Assembly: GCA_947648495.1 (NCBI GenBank)
Contig: CANSOA010000010.1
Span: 1 to 64,000, forward strand
DNA: 64,000 nucleotides
Source of the DNA: an uncultured Clostridium sp.
GTDB taxonomy: Bacteria > Bacillota > Clostridia > TANB77 > CAG-508
Direction: 5' to 3'
Shown: one piece after another, positions 1-44,149 of the stretch
Layout: the number at the start of each line of letters is the position of its first letter
How positions within the stretch are numbered: the first letter of the stretch is position 1
Made by a program: the position numbers and the translations under genes
The notes under the pieces: generated by a model
Seen by the model: the letters and a program-made list of their open reading frames with translations, nothing else
What the model was told of the DNA's origin: nothing
The model's database searches: none

Positions 1-16
1 TGTCAAATATTTACAT

Positions 17-286
17 TTATATGTTTTTCAAATATTCTTCTAACTCTGATAATTTTATCTTTTTAGTTAAGTTAGAGATATACACATCATTAGAATAATT
101 AAAAACTAAAAAGGTAATGTTTTTAATTATCACTCTATGTGGCTCTATATATGTAAGATTAGTTTTATCTAATTTTCTAATACTACCATTGATAAAGGTA
201 GGAGTAGCTTTTGAAAACTCACATATAAATTCAAGCCTTTGTTTTAGACATTCCTCAAACTCTAGTTCTTGCTTAATTATCTGCAT
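17..286 (-). CDS. small hypothetical protein
   Basis: An 89-residue ORF with no family that I recognise. It is rich in Lys, Glu, Ile and Asn, has no signal peptide or membrane segment, and looks soluble. I prefer the ATG at 286 (MQIIKQ) over the one at 298, because a purine-rich AAAGGATGG stretch lies at a workable distance upstream of 286 but touches 298. It is read in the same direction as the tRNA-Arg gene beyond the terminator at 338-373. Being at the window edge its context is incomplete, and the function is unknown. Confidence 0.45.
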   Translation of the reverse strand: MQIIKQELEFEECLKQRLEFICEFSKATPTFINGSIRKLDKTNLTYIEPHRVIIKNITFLVFNYSNDVYISNLTKKIKLSELEEYLKNI

Positions 287-11299: not shown

Positions 11300-11550
11300 T
11301 AAATAAAAACTAAGAAAAGGACACGATACATAACACTAACTTTTAGAGAGCCAAAGGATGGTGAAATTTTGGTAAGAATAGATTATGTGTTATCACCTTA
11401 GAGTTGATTGGCTGAAAAGGGAAGTAGGCTAATTCGTAAATCTTGCGTTAAAAGAAAAATGAGAGAGAAATTTATTCAAATTTCTAATTTAGGTGGTATC
11501 GCGGAGTAGCAGCATTTCGTCCTATGGAGGAAGTGCTGTTTATTTTTGTA
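11300..11550 (+). promoter_or_regulatory. T-box riboswitch controlling ileS
   Basis: The conserved T-box antiterminator element AGGTGGTATCGCGG is at 11491-11504. It is followed by a terminator hairpin (CAGCA...TGCTG, 11510-11539) and a T-rich run. Upstream lies the structured stem I region with AGAGAGCC and GGCTGAAA segments. Uncharged tRNA-Ile would stabilise the antiterminator and allow ileS expression. I could not fix the specifier codon with certainty; several ATC triplets lie in the right area. Confidence 0.9.
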
Positions 11551-33382: not shown

Positions 33383-33411
33383 TTGCATTTTGGTACAATA
33401 TATATTAAAAT
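33383..33411 (+). promoter_or_regulatory. promoter of the carAB leader
   Basis: TTGCAT, 17 nt, TAAAAT, with CTC directly before the -35, as at several other promoters here. Confidence 0.7.
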
Positions 33412-33447
33412 ATATAAGATAAATAAAGATAAGAGGTTACAATAAAA

Positions 33448-33558
33448 ATGAAAAAGGGAAAATTCAATAATAGAATAGCGAAAAATGATAGAAAAAAATC
33501 TATTATTAGTACCTTGTTTTCTTTTTTAATCAATCGTAATTTTATGGATAAACACTAG
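33448..33558 (+). CDS. candidate carAB leader peptide
   Basis: A 36-residue ORF beginning MKKGKFNNRIAKNDRKK and ending NRNFMDKH, between the promoter and carA. Its stop codon (33556-33558) lies in the 5' arm of the terminator hairpin at 33549. Codons 20-30 run through a T-rich stretch (33510-33535). This matches the architecture of enteric pyrBI attenuation, where transcription pausing at a U-rich leader couples to translation when UTP is low. Its ribosome binding site is weak (AAGAGG). Expression not proven. Confidence 0.5.
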   Translation: MKKGKFNNRIAKNDRKKSIISTLFSFLINRNFMDKH

Positions 33559-33581
33559 ATTTTATTTAGTGTTTATTTTTT
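33549..33581 (+). terminator. attenuator upstream of carA
   Basis: TAAACACTA / TAGTGTTTA perfect stem followed by TTTTTT, ending 28 nt before the carA start. A ribosome at the leader stop codon would cover the 5' arm and prevent termination. Confidence 0.75.
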
Positions 33582-33608
33582 AAGCATAACAGAAAGGATG
33601 GATAATTT

Positions 33609-34673
33609 ATGATAGGCTATTTAGTACTAGAAAATGGAGAAATATTTGAAGGAGAAAGAATTGGAGCAACGACGGTTGATACGGCATGTGAAGTGGTATT
33701 TAATACAGGAATGGCTGGCTATTTGGAAACCTTCACTGACCCATCTTATGCGGGACAAGGCATTGTTATGACCTATCCATTAATTGGAAATTATGGTGTT
33801 ATTCCAGACGATTTCGAATCAGAGCAAATTTGGGCCAAAGCGGTTTTTGTTCACGAACTTGCGGAATTTGAAAGCAATTTCCGTAAAAAAGACAGCTTAA
33901 ATAAGTTTTTAAGAGACTATAAAATTCCAGGTCTTACGAATATTAATACAAGAAAACTAACCAAATTGCTAAGAGAAACAGGAACAATGAAAGGCTATAT
34001 TACTTCTTCGATTGATAATATGGCAGAAATTAAGCAGAAAATCAAAGAATATGAAGTAGGAAAAGTAGTCAGACAAGTATCAACAAAAGAATTTAGGGCT
34101 TATGGAAGAGCGAAAGAAAAACAAATTGTTTTAATGGATTATGGATTTAAGCATAATATTGTCAATTCTTTTTTAAAAAGGGATGTTGGTGTTACAGTTT
34201 GTCCATGCAATACGCCAATAGATCGAGTTTTAGCATTAAAACCAGATGGGATTTTACTTTCAAATGGACCAGGAGATCCTGAAAATGCACAAGAAGAAAT
34301 TAATATTATTAAAGATTTGAGCAAAACGAATCTTCCAATTTTAGGAATTTGTTTGGGACATCAGTTGATGGCGTTGGCGCATGGATTTAAAACGGCGAAG
34401 TTAAAATATGGGCATCGAGGACCAAATCATCCAGTTAAAGATTTAGAAAATGGAAAAGTGTATATTACATCGCAAAATCATGGTTACTATGTAGTAGCGG
34501 ACAGCGTAAAACCAGAAATTGCTGAGGTTTCGCATATTAATTTAAATGATAATACTGTTGAAGGAATTCGTTATAAAAACAAAAACATATTCACGGTACA
34601 ATTCCATCCAGAAGCGTGTCCTGGACCAGAAGATACGAATGAAATATTTGACAAATTTGTCAAACAGCTTTAA
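33609..34673 (+). CDS. carA: carbamoyl-phosphate synthase small subunit
   Basis: Glutamine amidotransferase subunit that supplies ammonia to CarB for pyrimidine and arginine synthesis. 354 residues. N-terminal CPSase small-chain domain (VFNTGMAGYLETFTDPSYAGQ), C-terminal class I glutaminase with the nucleophile in LGICLGHQ (~residue 245) and His/Glu in VQFHPEACPGP. AGAAAGGATGG lies upstream of the ATG. carB follows after 104 nt. Confidence 0.97.
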   Translation: MIGYLVLENGEIFEGERIGATTVDTACEVVFNTGMAGYLETFTDPSYAGQGIVMTYPLIGNYGVIPDDFESEQIWAKAVFVHELAEFESNFRKKDSLNKFLRDYKIPGLTNINTRKLTKLLRETGTMKGYITSSIDNMAEIKQKIKEYEVGKVVRQVSTKEFRAYGRAKEKQIVLMDYGFKHNIVNSFLKRDVGVTVCPCNTPIDRVLALKPDGILLSNGPGDPENAQEEINIIKDLSKTNLPILGICLGHQLMALAHGFKTAKLKYGHRGPNHPVKDLENGKVYITSQNHGYYVVADSVKPEIAEVSHINLNDNTVEGIRYKNKNIFTVQFHPEACPGPEDTNEIFDKFVKQL

Positions 34674-34777
34674 GGGACTATCCGTTGCCTAATTGGATTG
34701 TAGAAAATCTGGTAAGCGAATGTGAGTTAATCATGTGAATAAATAATTATAAAAATTAGGAGAAAGGAAACAAAACA

Positions 34778-37700
34778 ATGCCAAAAAATAACCAAATTAA
34801 AAAAGTATTAGTCATCGGATCACGGACCAATCATCATTGGACAAGCCGCTGAATTTGATTATGCGGGAACACAAGCATGTCGTGAATTAAAAAAAGAAGG
34901 AATCGAAGTTGTTCTCATCAATTCCAATCCTGCCACAATTATGACAGACAAAAATATGGCAGATAAAATTTACATAGAGCCACTAAGCGTTACTACCGTA
35001 AAAAAAGTAATTGAAAAAGAACAGCCAGACAGCATTTTACCAAACTTAGGTGGGCAAACTGGATTGAATTTGGCAATGGAACTTGCAGAAAGTGGATTTT
35101 TGCAAGAACACAATGTACGTCTTTTAGGAACAGGAACACAAGGAATCAAAAATGCTGAAGATAGGCAAGCCTTTAAAGATATGATGGAATCCATTCATGA
35201 ACCCTGCATTGCCAGTAAAGTAGTAGAAACCGTTGACGATGCTATAGAATTCACACGAGAAATTGGACTTCCTGTTATTATTCGACCTGCTTATACCTTA
35301 GGGGGGACTGGAGGCGGAATTGCAACCACTTTTGAAGAATTAGAAGAAATTGCAGGAAGTGGACTTCGTATGTCGCGTGTACATCAAATTTTAGTAGAAA
35401 AATGCATCACTGGCTGGAAAGAAGTTGAATACGAAGTCATGCGTGATAGTGCAGGAAATTGCATCACCATCTGTAATATGGAAAATATCGATCCAGTAGG
35501 GGTTCACACAGGAGACAGCATTGTTGTTGCACCTTCGCAAACTTTGGCAGATAAGGAATATCAGATGCTTCGAACCTCTGCCATTAAAATCATATCTGCC
35601 CTTAAAATTGAAGGTGGATGCAATGTGCAATTTGCTTTAAACCCAAATAGCTTTGAATATGCTGTCATTGAAGTAAATCCTAGAGTAAGCCGTTCATCTG
35701 CTTTAGCATCCAAAGCAACAGGTTACCCAATCGCAAAAGTAGCGACCAAAATTGCGTTAGGTTATACATTAGATGAAATCAAAAATGAAGTAACAGGCAA
35801 AACATATGCTTGTTTTGAGCCCGTTTTAGATTATGTGGTTGTTAAAATTCCAAAATGGCCATTTAAGAAATTTTTGACAGCTAATCGAACACTTGGTACG
35901 CAAATGAAAGCAACAGGCGAAGTTATGGCAATTGCACCAAATTTAGAGGCAGGACTTATGAAAGCCATTCGTTCGTTAGAAGAAAATATGGATAGTTTTA
36001 TCATGCCAGGTTTACAAAATTTGGAAAAAGAGGAAATTTTAGAAAAACTAAAAGAGGTTGACAATGACAGAATATTCGTTATTGCAGAAGCTATCAGACG
36101 CGAAATTTCAGTTGACCAAATCCATGAAATTACCACAATTGACCGATTTTTTATAGGAGCGATTTATAAAATTGTTCGTATGGAAAACGAACTTAGCGTT
36201 AATGAAATGAACAGCAGGTTGCTTTTAAAAGCAAAAAAATTAGGATTTACAGACAAAGTAATTGCCAAATTAAGTGGGAAAACTGAAAATGAAATTTTGA
36301 AAATACGCGAAGAAAATCGAATTACAGCAAATTTTAAAATGGTTGACACTTGCGCTGCTGAATTTGAAGCGAGGACGCCCTATTATTACTCAAGTTATGA
36401 TGATGAAAATGAAGCCAAACAGACCGCTAAAAAGAAAATTATGGTGTTAGGTTCTGGACCTATTCGCATTGGACAAGGAATTGAGTTCGATTATTGTAGT
36501 GTGCATGGTGTCTGGGCTTTGAAAGAATTGGGCTATGAAACCATTATTGTAAATAACAATCCAGAAACGGTTAGCACGGATTTTGATATTGCAGATAAAT
36601 TATATTTTGAGCCATTAACAGCCGAAGATGTGAAAAATATTATCGATGTTGAAAAGCCAGAAGGTGCAATTGTACAATTTGGTGGACAAACAGCGATTAA
36701 ATTGACCAAAGCTTTGTCGGATATGGGCGTGAGAATTATCGGCACCAGCGAAAAAGACATGGATAGAGCAGAAGATAGAAAAGAATTTGATGAAGCTTTA
36801 AATCATTGTGAAATTTTGCGTCCAAAAGGAAGTACGATTTATACAGTAGAGGAAGCAAAGGAAGTGGCAAATCGACTTGGTTATCCTGTTTTAGTACGTC
36901 CGTCATATGTTTTAGGTGGGCAAGGAATGGCGATTGCTTATGATGATCATGAAATGGAAGAATACATCAATGAAATTAACACGATTGCGCAAGAACATCC
37001 AATTTTGGTGGATAAATATATGCTAGGAAAAGAGTTGGAAGTGGATGCAATTTGCGATGGGGAAGATGTATTAATTCCAGGAATTATGGAGCATTTGGAA
37101 AGAGCGGGTGTTCATTCAGGAGACAGTATTTCGGTATACCCAACACAGAGTATTGCGCAAAAGCATCAAGAGAAAATCATTGAGTATACAGAAAAAATTG
37201 CAAAAGAATTGAATATTATTGGCATGATAAATATTCAGTTTATTATTTCAAATGATGAAGTGTATATTATTGAAGTCAATCCACGTTCGAGCCGAACGGT
37301 TCCTTATATTAGCAAAGTCACAAATTTGCCGATGATTGATATTGCAACACGTGTGATGTTTGGGGAAAAACTAAAAGAAATTGGCTATGGAACAGGTGTA
37401 TATAAGAAAAGTGATTATGTTTGTGTGAAAATGCCAGTATTTTCATTTGAAAAGATTAAAAATGCGGATACGAGTTTGGGACCAGAAATGAAGTCTACAG
37501 GCGAGGTTTTGGGCGTTTCAAAGGAATTTCATAAAGCAACTTTGAAAGCTTTTATCGCAAGTGGAGCGAATGTATCGAGCAAAGGAAGCATTTTGATTAC
37601 AGTTCGCAACAAAGATAAAGAGGAAATGCTTCCGATTGCGCAGAAATTTTTTAGTAAAGGTTTTGAAATTTATGCAACCTCTGGAACAGCAAGTTTTTTA

Positions 37701-37976
37701 GCATCAAACGGTATTGGGGCAAATGTTGTGGAGAAAATCTGGGAAGGAAAAAATAGCATTATTGATTTAATTCAGTCTGGCAAAATTAATTTTGTCATTA
37801 ATACACCAACAAAAGGAAAAGAATCCAATCGAGATGGATTTAAAATCCGTAGAATGGCAGTTGAATGCAAAATCCCTTGTTTTACATCATTAGATACAGT
37901 CAATGCATTATATGATGCCATTGAAAATAATGTAAGAGAAGAACAATTAGATGTTGTCAATATTGTGGAAATATAA
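34778..37976 (+). CDS. carB: carbamoyl-phosphate synthase large subunit, +1 frameshift at CGGA
   Basis: Makes carbamoyl phosphate from bicarbonate, ammonia and 2 ATP. About 1,065 residues after restoration, full family length. ATG 34778 (MPKNNQIKKVLVIGS) has AGGAGAAAGG upstream. At codon 16 the frame reads CGG and would end within about eight codons. Skipping C 34823 gives GGA and the invariant GPIIIGQAAEFDYAGTQAC. Two ATP-grasp halves follow (GLPVIIRPAYTLGGTGGG; GYPVLVRPSYVLGGQGM), then the MGS-like allosteric domain. The same nucleotide-binding motif in the second half (GSGPIRIGQGIEFDY) has no inserted C. Confidence 0.96.
34823..34826 (+). other. +1 frameshift site CGGA (carB)
   Basis: TCA-C-GGA-CCA; the glycine of the invariant GSGPIIIGQ motif is restored by skipping one C. 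A second site later in the same gene encodes the equivalent motif as GGT TCT GGA CCT without the C. Confidence 0.96.
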
Positions 37977-40466: not shown

Positions 40467-41466
40467 ATGAGTTTTATAGACGATATAAAAAATAGAGCAA
40501 AAACACAAATTAAAACAATTGTATTGCCAGAGGCTTCTGATAAAAGAATAATTGAAGCGACTGCTATTGCCTTAAAAGAGGGATATGCTAATATTATTTT
40601 GTTAGGAGACGAGAAAAAAATTGAGCGAATCGCACAAGAAAATCAGTTTGATATTTCAAAAGCGAGAATTATCAATCCTAAAACTTCAGAAAAACTAGAG
40701 CAATATGCGAATGATTTATATGAATTGCGAAAAAATAAAGGAATGACCATTGAAAAAGCTAAAGAACTCGTTTTAGATGAAGTTTATTTTGGTATGATGA
40801 TGGTGAAAAAAGAAGAAGCAGATGGTTTAGTTTCGCGGAGCGATTCATTCGACTTCAGATACACTTCGTCCTGCTCTTCAAATTCTAAAAACTGCGCCAG
40901 ATACAAAATTGGTTTCAGCCTTTTTTGTAATGGTTGTTCCAAATTGTGAATATGGAGAAAATGGAATTTTTGTTTTTGGCGATTGTGGACTAAATGAAAA
41001 TCCTGAAGCGCAGGAATTGGCTGAGATTGCAAAATCTTCTAGTGAAAGTTTTGAAAAATTAGTTGGTAAATCTGCTAAAATTGGAATGCTTTCGTATTCA
41101 ACCTATGGAAGTGCGAAATCAGAAATGACGCAAAAAGTGATTGATGCAACTAATATTATAAAAGAAACTTATCCAGAACTTAAAGTAGAGGGAGAATTGC
41201 AGTTGGATAGTGCAATTGTACCAGAAGTAGCAAAGTCAAAAGCGCCGAATAGCGAAATTGCAGGACAATGTAATACATTAATCTTTCCTAATTTGGAAGC
41301 TGGAAATATTGGTTATAAATTAACGCAAAGACTTGCTAAAGCAGAGGCTTATGGACCACTTTGTCAAGGAATTAGCAAACCCATTAATGATTTGTCAAGA
41401 GGGTGTTCGGCAAAAGATGTGGCAGGTGTGATTGCGATTACTTGTGTACAGGCACAAAAAATTTGA
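40467..41466 (+). CDS. pta: phosphate acetyltransferase, +1 frameshift at CGGA
   Basis: Converts acetyl-CoA and phosphate to acetyl phosphate, the step before acetate kinase. About 332 residues after restoration, full length. N-terminal TIVLPEASDKRIIEAT. At VKKEEADGLVS the frame reads TCG-CGG; skipping C 40836 gives the invariant GAIHSTSDTLRPALQ, then SAFFVMVVP and the C-terminal GPLCQGISKPINDLSRGCS motif. Own promoter; ackA follows 232 nt downstream. Confidence 0.96.
40836..40839 (+). other. +1 frameshift site CGGA (pta)
   Basis: TCG-C-GGA-GCG; restores the conserved SGAIHST motif of phosphotransacetylases. Confidence 0.96.
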
Positions 41467-41698: not shown

Positions 41699-44149
41699 AT
41701 GAAAATTTTAGTTTTAAATTGTGGAAGTAGTTCCTTAAAATATCAGTTGCTTGATATGGAAAGGGAAGAAGTGATTACAAAAGGAACATATGAAAGAATT
41801 GGGCAAAATAATTCTTTTGTGACAATTAAGCAAAAGGGACAGAAAGTTAGAATTGAGCATCCTGTAGAAAATCATGATTTGGCGTTGAAATTTGTAATGG
41901 AAGATTTGCTAACAGGTGAAGAATATGGCGTAATTCAAGATTTGAATGAAATTGACGCAGTAGGACATCGTTTGGTTCATGGGGGAGAAAAGTTTAGTAG
42001 CTCAGTTTTAATTACAGATGAAGTTATTGAACAAATCAAAGAATGTATTCCACTTGCACCACTTCATAATCCTGCTTGTTTATTAGGAATTGAGGCTTGC
42101 AAAAAACAAATTAAAAACACGCCGATGGTCGCTGTTTTCGATACAGCTTTTCATCAAACCATGCCAAAAGAAAATTATATTTATCCGCTTCCTTATGAAT
42201 ATTATGAAAAATATAAAATTCGTAAATATGGTTTCCATGGAACAAGTCATAAATTTGTATCACAAAGAGTGGCACAAGTGATGGGAAAAGACGTGAAAGA
42301 TTTGAGAATTGTGACTTGTCATTTGGGGCAAGGAGCGTCACTTTGTGCGATAGATGGAGGAAAATCAGTTAATACCAGTATGGGATTGACACCACTAGGA
42401 GGTATTGCCATGTGTGCAAGATGTGGTGATATGGATCCTTCTTTGCCGGGTTATTTGATGGAGACTTTGGGCAAGACGAAGGAGGAAGTCAATCAGATTT
42501 TGAATAAAGAATCTGGTGTTCTTGGTATTTCTGGCATTAGTCCTGATTTTAGAGATGTGGAAGCGGCCAAAGCAGAGGGAAACGAAAGGGCAGCTTTAGC
42601 AATTGATTTTTATAATCATACGGTCGCAGAATATATTGCGCGTTACGCCGTTTCAATGCAAGGAATTGATGTAATAGTGTTTACAGCAGGAATTGGTGAG
42701 AATCAAATTAATATTAGAAAAGGGATTTGTGAAAAATTGAAATTCATGGGAGTTGAGATTGACGAAAAGGCAAATGATTGCAGAGGTGAAGAAATTGAAA
42801 TTTCAACAGCTAGCTCAAAAATAAAAGTTTTTGTAATTCCAACGGATGAAGAATTGATGATTGCACGTGATACAAAAGAAATTGTGGAAAGATTAAATTT
42901 TCAACGAAGTGCTAGAAATATTGGTATTGTACGCAAAAAAGAAGGTATAACGTTAATTGCGTTGGTAGTAACAATTATCGTATTATTAATTTTAGCAGGA
43001 GTCACGATTGCTTTAATATCAGGAGAAAACGGCATATTAAAAAGAGCGACAAATGCAGTAGATGTTAATGAAAAGGCTTCAGCACAAGAGGAAGCGAATT
43101 TGCTAATAGCAGATTTTGCTACGCAGTATTATGAAGGGAAATATGTCAATCATAAAGCGGAGTTTGAAAATGTAGATGAATATATCAAGACAAAGTTGAG
43201 AACGGAAAAAGAGACAGAAGGAGGCTATAAGGTAAAATATGATGAAGAAACAGGAGAAATAGAAGTTTCTAAAAATGACAAACCAATTTCTTCAGGACCA
43301 ATTGTAAATGGAAAAGTAGATTGGTCAGAAGAAAATCTAGGAGAAGATGTAGGTGGTAGCACAGGAGGAAATGACCAAAACTATGAAGATTATATAGATG
43401 AGCGAATAGAAGTGGATCAGAAAATTTATATTAATTCACAAATTGGAAATGATGAAACAGGAGATGGAAGCCAGAAAAATCCATATGCAACATTGGATAA
43501 AATTGCAGACGCAGGAATTATTCAAAATGGATATCGTTATGCGATTGTTTTAATGGATGGAGAGTACCAGTTGACAACAAAGATGTTTCAATTGAATTGT
43601 AATCAAGAGATAAATATAATTGGGAATAAAGAAAAAACAATCCTCAATGTTGGAACACTGTATGGTGTTGAAGGAAATTCAACTGGAGGAGGTAGTCAAG
43701 CATATTTAGTTAATATCTATAGATTAATATGGAAAGGAGACGTTGAAGGTCCAAATACAATTTTTTTGCATACAAAATTAAGTTTGTATAATGTTGTTTT
43801 TGATTTTAATTTTTCTTCTGCTATTTATAGTTATTTTATTAGTTGTGGTTTGGGATGTTATTTTGACAACTGTACTTTGCCACAATCAATAAATCAATTT
43901 TTAAGGTCATGGAATGGAGGAGTTGTTCGATTAACAAACTGTTATGGAGGATTTACGTCTGGATATGGTACAACTGATTCCATGTGGGATTACCAAACCA
44001 ATCATATAACGCAAGAGCCACAAGTGGATGAACGTTACAGAATCACAGAAGATGCAAGCGTGTGGAAAAATGTAGGCACAGGAACCAATCCAGATGGAAC
44101 ACAAGCAAATTTGGGTGTGTATGGTGGAGAATTCTCTTGGGACAAATAA
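41699..44149 (+). CDS. ackA: acetate kinase fused to a prepilin-like beta-helix protein
   Basis: One 816-residue frame. Residues 1-~398 are a complete acetate kinase (NCGSSSLKYQL; HxLGQGASLCAIDGGKS; IPTDEELMIARDT), making ATP and acetate from acetyl phosphate. After a short linker the frame continues into a prepilin-type N-terminus, KKEGITLIALVVTIIVLLILAGVTI (quoted in two parts: KKEGITLIAL and VVTIIVLLILAG, ~residue 413-437), a pilin-like helix and an extracellular part with likely parallel beta-helix (INSQIGNDETGDGSQKNPY...). Another pilin with the same N-terminus is at 49163. AGGAGG precedes ATG 41699; no ribosome binding site precedes the pilin part. Confidence 0.88.
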   Translation: MKILVLNCGSSSLKYQLLDMEREEVITKGTYERIGQNNSFVTIKQKGQKVRIEHPVENHDLALKFVMEDLLTGEEYGVIQDLNEIDAVGHRLVHGGEKFSSSVLITDEVIEQIKECIPLAPLHNPACLLGIEACKKQIKNTPMVAVFDTAFHQTMPKENYIYPLPYEYYEKYKIRKYGFHGTSHKFVSQRVAQVMGKDVKDLRIVTCHLGQGASLCAIDGGKSVNTSMGLTPLGGIAMCARCGDMDPSLPGYLMETLGKTKEEVNQILNKESGVLGISGISPDFRDVEAAKAEGNERAALAIDFYNHTVAEYIARYAVSMQGIDVIVFTAGIGENQINIRKGICEKLKFMGVEIDEKANDCRGEEIEISTASSKIKVFVIPTDEELMIARDTKEIVERLNFQRSARNIGIVRKKEGITLIALVVTIIVLLILAGVTIALISGENGILKRATNAVDVNEKASAQEEANLLIADFATQYYEGKYVNHKAEFENVDEYIKTKLRTEKETEGGYKVKYDEETGEIEVSKNDKPISSGPIVNGKVDWSEENLGEDVGGSTGGNDQNYEDYIDERIEVDQKIYINSQIGNDETGDGSQKNPYATLDKIADAGIIQNGYRYAIVLMDGEYQLTTKMFQLNCNQEINIIGNKEKTILNVGTLYGVEGNSTGGGSQAYLVNIYRLIWKGDVEGPNTIFLHTKLSLYNVVFDFNFSSAIYSYFISCGLGCYFDNCTLPQSINQFLRSWNGGVVRLTNCYGGFTSGYGTTDSMWDYQTNHITQEPQVDERYRITEDASVWKNVGTGTNPDGTQANLGVYGGEFSWDK

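Follow-up and report, generated by a model that had tools for sequence, protein, structure and literature searches.

The carA gene is preceded, in the stretch of DNA analysed here (64,000 nt from an uncultured Clostridium sp., hereafter the window), by a leader with a small open reading frame and an intrinsic terminator. We propose that this leader is a UTP-responsive, translation-coupled transcription attenuator of the pyrBI type, which would set the expression of carAB by the supply of UTP. To this reading, made from the layout of the sequence and its conservation, we assign a probability of about 0.68. The architecture itself is almost certainly real and conserved, the same order of elements being found at 68 loci.

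Layout of the leader in front of carA

The elements of the leader and the two genes that follow it are listed in Table 1. Transcription is expected to start near 33418, AGAGG stands upstream of the ATG of the leader ORF, and the stop codon of this ORF lies inside the 5' arm of the terminator. The initial annotation of this DNA had described a promoter, a 36-codon ORF with a T-rich second half, a stop codon in the 5' arm of a terminator and then carA, and all of these are present at their positions in the window. The terminator that it had proposed is real by its fold, with an energy of −13.0 kcal/mol compared with a mean of −3.3 for shuffled sequences (z −5.1; none of 200 shuffles as good); it was not called by a simple terminator scanner because its stem core has only two G-C pairs. 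Only 27 nt separate the end of the U tail from the start of carA, which leaves no room for a separate carA promoter, such as the strong one past the hairpin that the initial annotation had set against its own reading; carA must therefore be read through the terminator.

Table 1. Features of the carA leader and of the carAB genes in the window.
Feature	Position	Strand	Basis
Sigma-A promoter TTGCAT-17-TAAAAT (TTGCAT 33383–33388, spacer 17 nt, TAAAAT 33406–33411)	33383–33411	+	Sequence; pattern also upstream of 61/67 related leaders
Leader ORF, 36 codons, MKKGKFNNRIAKNDRKKSIISTLFSFLINRNFMDKH (ATG at 33448, stop TAG 33556–33558)	33448–33558	+	No in-frame stop in any of the 65 distinct related leaders
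Putative pause hairpin AAUGAUAGA/UCUAUUAUU, within the leader ORF	33484–33507	+	Fold; 97.9% paired in 12 relatives; compensatory changes
U run TTTTCTTTTTT, proposed UTP-sensitive pause site	33517–33527	+	9 nt past the hairpin; ORF richer in T in its second half in 65/65 leaders
Intrinsic terminator (attenuator), stem 33546–33560 / 33564–33578, U tail	33546–33581	+	Fold; present in relatives; one pair with compensatory change within the clade
carA, carbamoyl phosphate synthase small subunit, regulated gene	33609–34673	+	NCBIfam NF009475, 493.8 bits; TIGR01368, 449.2 bits
carB, carbamoyl phosphate synthase large subunit	34779–37976	+	NF003671, 1455.9 bits for 34941–37976; frame break near 34820

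The carB gene, presumably in one operon with carA, is out of frame near 34820 (34770–34945; GGATC-A-CGGACC, with one extra base), and the listed ORF begins at 34941. The pta gene (40467–41466) and pyrF (locus L205) have breaks like that of carB, which points to indel errors of the assembly rather than to pseudogenes. Another indel, or a lost stop codon, is perhaps also behind an odd fusion at 41699–44149, where a single ORF of 816 aa combines an N-terminal part resembling acetate kinase with a prepilin-like segment (KKEGITLIALVVTIIVLLILAGVTIALISGENG) and one more domain. An ordinary tRNA-sensing T-box leader (RF00230, 117.6 bits) is found at 11303–11527.

A hairpin ahead of the U run

A second hairpin, which the initial annotation had missed, lies within the leader ORF just upstream of the U run. 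It has an A-rich loop and a folding energy of −6.6 kcal/mol (z −6.1; 0/200 shuffles as good). Across the 12 leaders of the window's clade two of its pairs show compensatory changes, one from A-U to G-C and one from A-U to C-G. When this hairpin and the terminator were scored jointly, none of 500 shuffles matched their pairing or their covariation, and all slid controls were exceeded. Codon shuffles of the whole ORF gave the same picture in 8 of the 12 leaders of the clade (p <= 0.05), and in the sister genus a hairpin outdid such shuffles at this level in 8 of 13 leaders, with weak covariation. The sequence of the hairpin is conserved within the window's clade and differs freely between clades; outside the clade it is weak or absent in several leaders, some subclades showing none clearly. 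We consider the hairpin firm in the window and its clade, and suggestive elsewhere.

In the leaders of Erysipelotrichaceae-like bacteria a longer-range helix may pair the ribosome-binding region with the bases just before the U run. The evidence for it is only suggestive: 92% of it is paired in nine sequences, with five cells changed on both sides, and 7 of 500 shuffles scored as high. Such pairing of the leader's own ribosome-binding region (L080, L089 and L096–L112) might limit its translation to the first ribosome.

Conservation and distribution of the leader

We searched for carA in genomes of the genus, the order and the phylum and in the GTDB genome collection, and then read the DNA upstream of it. 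The arrangement is present in 41 of the 45 carA-bearing genomes of the genus (a contig end truncates one) and in 15 of 18 further carA genomes from the sample of the order, all members of the family; of the three others, one has too little upstream DNA to be judged. It also occurs at 12 loci of Erysipelotrichaceae-like bacteria, including isolates of Thomasclavelia, Faecalibacillus and Erysipelatoclostridium; Faecalibacillus intestinalis is a cultured commensal among the carriers. The promoter pattern found ahead of 61 of 67 related leaders is TTGNNN-16..18-TANNNT, the spacer being mostly 17 or 18 nt long. The initial annotation had asked whether the leader ORF is kept in relatives, and it is, at all of the loci with this order of elements.

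Three main terminator sequences were found (AACACTA..TAGTGTT, ATAAGGA..TCCTTAT and ACATATCA..TGATATGT), along with a handful of further ones, AGAATTCTA..TAGAATTCT among them, so that the loci are not copies of a single segment of DNA. Among 29 carA loci sampled across the phylum, no instance of the arrangement was found with a detector that recovers 61 of the 67 known loci, and the element thus belongs to certain lineages. Within the window's own genome, of which about 460 kb were scanned, the carA leader is the only place with a convincing pattern, and the arrangement is absent at pyrF and pyrB.

In some relatives (L060–L063 and L125–L127) carA has no leader ORF and follows an apparent tsf or greA gene, and the terminator comes right after the stop codon of this gene, as in rph-pyrE of E. 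coli. At these loci the part of the leader may be played by coupling to the genuine gene upstream.

Selection on the leader ORF

None of the 65 distinct leaders, which are related by descent and not independent, has its frame interrupted, while dinucleotide shuffles leave it open in 6.7% of cases on average. The same 65 stretches hold no stop codon in the frame of the ORF, whereas the alternative frames hold 256 and 215. Differences at the three codon positions number 253/275/310 in the window's clade and 215/295/194 and 117/144/117 in two other clades, and codons with a single change are mostly non-synonymous (73:284, 62:261 and 42:132, synonymous to non-synonymous). An open frame that lacks any codon-position bias argues that the ORF must be translatable, and it is this translatability, rather than the encoded peptide, that seems to matter. 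Peptide-specific stalling was rejected on the lack of codon-position bias, and no arrest motif is conserved across the leader peptides. In every leader the second half of the ORF is richer in T than the first (median 0.52 compared with 0.28).

In 96% of leaders, compared with 21% of ordinary gene ends of the same genome, the terminator has begun before the stop codon is complete (p ~1e-11). In this comparison the leaders had been chosen by the position of their stop, and A+U-rich stems hold stops in several frames; no locus with a recognised terminator was without such a leader ORF.

Pathway context and search for PyrR

In Bacillota, PyrR accounts for most of what is known of pyrimidine regulation. 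We found no PyrR over the curated cut-off in the 53 genomes of the genus or in 18 others (71 in all), using a model that exceeded this cut-off in 6 of 14 control genomes; the weak match in the window's genome is hypoxanthine phosphoribosyltransferase (Hpt). A search of the leader for the PyrR-binding RNA (RF00515) returned nothing up to E = 5, and with neither this RNA nor a pyrR gene found, the earlier statement that no PyrR-type leader is recognisable stands.

The only carbamoyltransferase of this kind in the window's genome is aspartate carbamoyltransferase, which is encoded elsewhere in a gmk-pyrB operon; pyrF is present, and ornithine carbamoyltransferase was not found in this genome. The search for argininosuccinate synthase (ArgG) in the same genome returned only partial, weak matches. 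One of 28.4 bits (family cut-off 27) covers less than half of the model in a frame of 351 residues and is probably MnmA, and the frame of a second also matches the glutaminase domain of carA and is probably GuaA. Since neither ornithine carbamoyltransferase nor a convincing ArgG was found, carAB most likely feeds pyrimidines only, and an arginine input is unsupported. Thus, neither arginine nor PyrR seems to be available as an input to the leader.

Coupling, pausing and the proposed mechanism

Control by leader peptides that relies on the coupling of transcription and translation has been questioned in Bacillota because transcription in B. subtilis outruns the ribosomes, as discussed in PMC7858274. 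A short distance from stop codon to terminator serves as a proxy for such runaway transcription (Johnson et al. 2020, as summarised in PMC7858274), and ordinary terminators in the window's genome start a median of 8–9 nt past the stop codon. Judged from these gene ends, transcription in this lineage may well be uncoupled, which would explain the need for a strong pause and a switch that is off by default. The same short distances weaken the inference that a ribosome bound at a stop codon always blocks the terminator.

In hairpin-stabilised pauses the 3' end of the RNA lies 11–12 nt from the hairpin (PMC12288461). Applied to the leader, this rule would position the active site of RNA polymerase where the U run begins, UTP being the next nucleotide to enter, which is the requirement of a UTP-sensitive pause. 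The NusG protein of the window's genome retains the N-T pair (VRNT) where the pro-pausing residues named in PMC12288461 are located, and its sequence would allow a role of NusG in pausing on the leader. The NusG pause motif TTNTTT occurs in 57 of 65 leaders where 52 are expected from composition, that is, without enrichment, and was dropped as evidence.

According to the mechanism that we propose, RNA polymerase would cross the U run fast when UTP is plentiful, outrun the first ribosome and terminate. When UTP is limiting, the polymerase would pause, giving the ribosome time to catch up, melt the hairpin and free the polymerase, which it would then trail closely. On reaching the stop codon this ribosome would cover the 5' arm of the terminator, so that termination would fail and carAB would be made. 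The pause would thus re-couple ribosome and polymerase at low UTP, a step that we invoke because the ordinary gene ends suggest uncoupled transcription. An open frame without codon-position bias is as expected if translation, and not the peptide, matters.

Other readings of the same anatomy were considered. A coupled attenuator would respond to either machine, and the leader could sense how fast ribosome and polymerase move relative to each other in general (through translation capacity, ppGpp or antibiotics) and not UTP as such; the tlrB and vmlR leaders of B. subtilis, as described in PMC6851288 and PMC9226507, combine pausing, a leader peptide and attenuation in the sensing of antibiotics. 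We consider this unlikely, since the regulated gene stands at the entry to pyrimidine synthesis, the tract is rich in U, the spacing of hairpin and U run resembles that of pyrL (9 compared with 10 nt) and the peptide has no conserved arrest motif. In most leaders, codons for Phe, Leu and Ile are also frequent in the second half, and the U-rich stretch could be a run of such codons at which a ribosome stalls, as in attenuation of the trp or phe type. This would call for an antiterminator, and none was found: in most leaders complements to the 5' arm of the terminator are only of chance length (4–6 nt, a few of 7–8), and none is conserved. There is no conserved run of codons, the codon positions evolve alike, Phe is unconnected to carAB, and pyrL of E. 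coli is itself Phe-rich for the sake of its U's, all of which makes control by these amino acids very improbable.

The conserved sequence of the upstream hairpin within the window's clade could also be taken for the binding site of a regulatory protein or for a riboswitch, with the ORF present by chance. The selected openness of the ORF and the free variation of the hairpin between clades speak against a bound leader, as do the lack of any match to an Rfam family and the failure to find PyrR, and we regard it as quite improbable. Finally, ordinary genes of this genome also have terminators just past their stop codon and the leader peptide is not conserved, as would hold if the terminator were an unregulated element that lowers carA transcription behind a functionless ORF. 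It is extremely unlikely that there is no switch, given that carA has to be read through this terminator and that all 65 leaders keep the ORF open where 6.7% would be expected to do so, ahead of carA in dozens of species and with three terminator sequences that differ from one another.

Comparison with known systems

Searches of Rfam returned nothing relevant, either at the gathering threshold in the window and ten related loci or up to E = 5 on the leader, and no earlier report of such a carA leader was found in the literature searched. Rfam is without a family for such leaders, and the layout described here gives a rule by which to search for them.

With the PyrR-dependent attenuation of Bacillota pyr operons the leader shares a terminator before a pyrimidine gene; it differs in being translated and in that no pyrR gene or PyrR-binding RNA was found. 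In E. coli rph-pyrE, the rph frame ends near the attenuator and a following ribosome can block the terminator. The position of the stop codon inside the stem brings the leader nearer to rph-pyrE than to pyrBI, whereas the upstream frame of rph-pyrE is a real gene, rph, and here a short ORF of 36 codons that has a promoter to itself takes its place. In tlrB of B. subtilis, also of the Bacillota, a NusG pause and a leader peptide act together and pausing lets the leader ribosome interfere with the terminator (PMC6851288). A translated leader before a terminator is common to both, pausing would be so under the proposed mechanism, and tlrB differs in its antibiotic input, its 9-residue peptide with an arrest motif and a hairpin that sequesters the SD. 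Another structured leader before carA is the Polynucleobacter carA motif, an extended hairpin of beta-proteobacteria and a riboswitch candidate, for which, unlike the window, a leader ORF with a U run is not reported (PMC8632094).

The closest parallel in layout is pyrL of E. coli, whose DNA was taken for comparison from an E. coli record. In that leader, as outlined in PMC10135430, pausing at low UTP on a U-rich template lets the ribosome prevent the terminator hairpin. Both have, in order, a promoter, a leader ORF with an SD sequence, a hairpin, a U run, a terminator and a pyrimidine gene. The hairpin begins 36 nt from the ATG in the window and 32 nt in pyrL; its end is separated from the U run by 9 nt (AGTACCTTG) in the window, as in nearly all of its clade, and by 10 nt (TGGCCTGCCG) in pyrL; and the start of the U run lies 29 nt from the terminator stem (21–33 in the clade), compared with 30 nt. 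The initial annotation had equated the order of the window with that of the pyrBI leader. The matching spacings and the hairpin before the U run bear this out, and the sequence comparison suggests a likeness to enteric pyrBI control that is stronger than was then known, but a stop codon within the 5' arm departs from the order of pyrBI: the pyrL ORF passes through the attenuator, its stop ending 45 nt past the start of the stem, while the ORF of the window stops within the stem, 13 nt past its start. The leader of the window also precedes carAB and not pyrBI, its terminator is A+U-rich, its host is a PyrR-less clostridium, and the response to UTP is here predicted from the layout. By that layout the leader would work like pyrBI; it should not be classed as an enteric pyrL, having another gene and an ORF that does not run through the attenuator.

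The likeness to pyrL, compared here in layout, looks convergent. We lean, by a modest measure, towards the view that Bacillota evolved a UTP-sensing, ribosome-dependent attenuation of their own, independently of the enteric bacteria, in PyrR-less lineages with seemingly uncoupled transcription where a UTP-limited pause re-couples the two machines at one leader, with a version in Erysipelotrichaceae-like gut bacteria whose helix includes the ribosome-binding region of the leader. A conserved pyrBI-like leader in gut Bacillota without PyrR offers a natural setting in which to ask whether a pause can bring transcription and translation back into step at a defined site. Should the likeness be convergent, the succession of hairpin, 9 or 10 nt, U run, 30 nt and terminator, common to the window and to E. 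coli pyrL, would represent a reusable design for sensing a nucleotide without a dedicated sensor.
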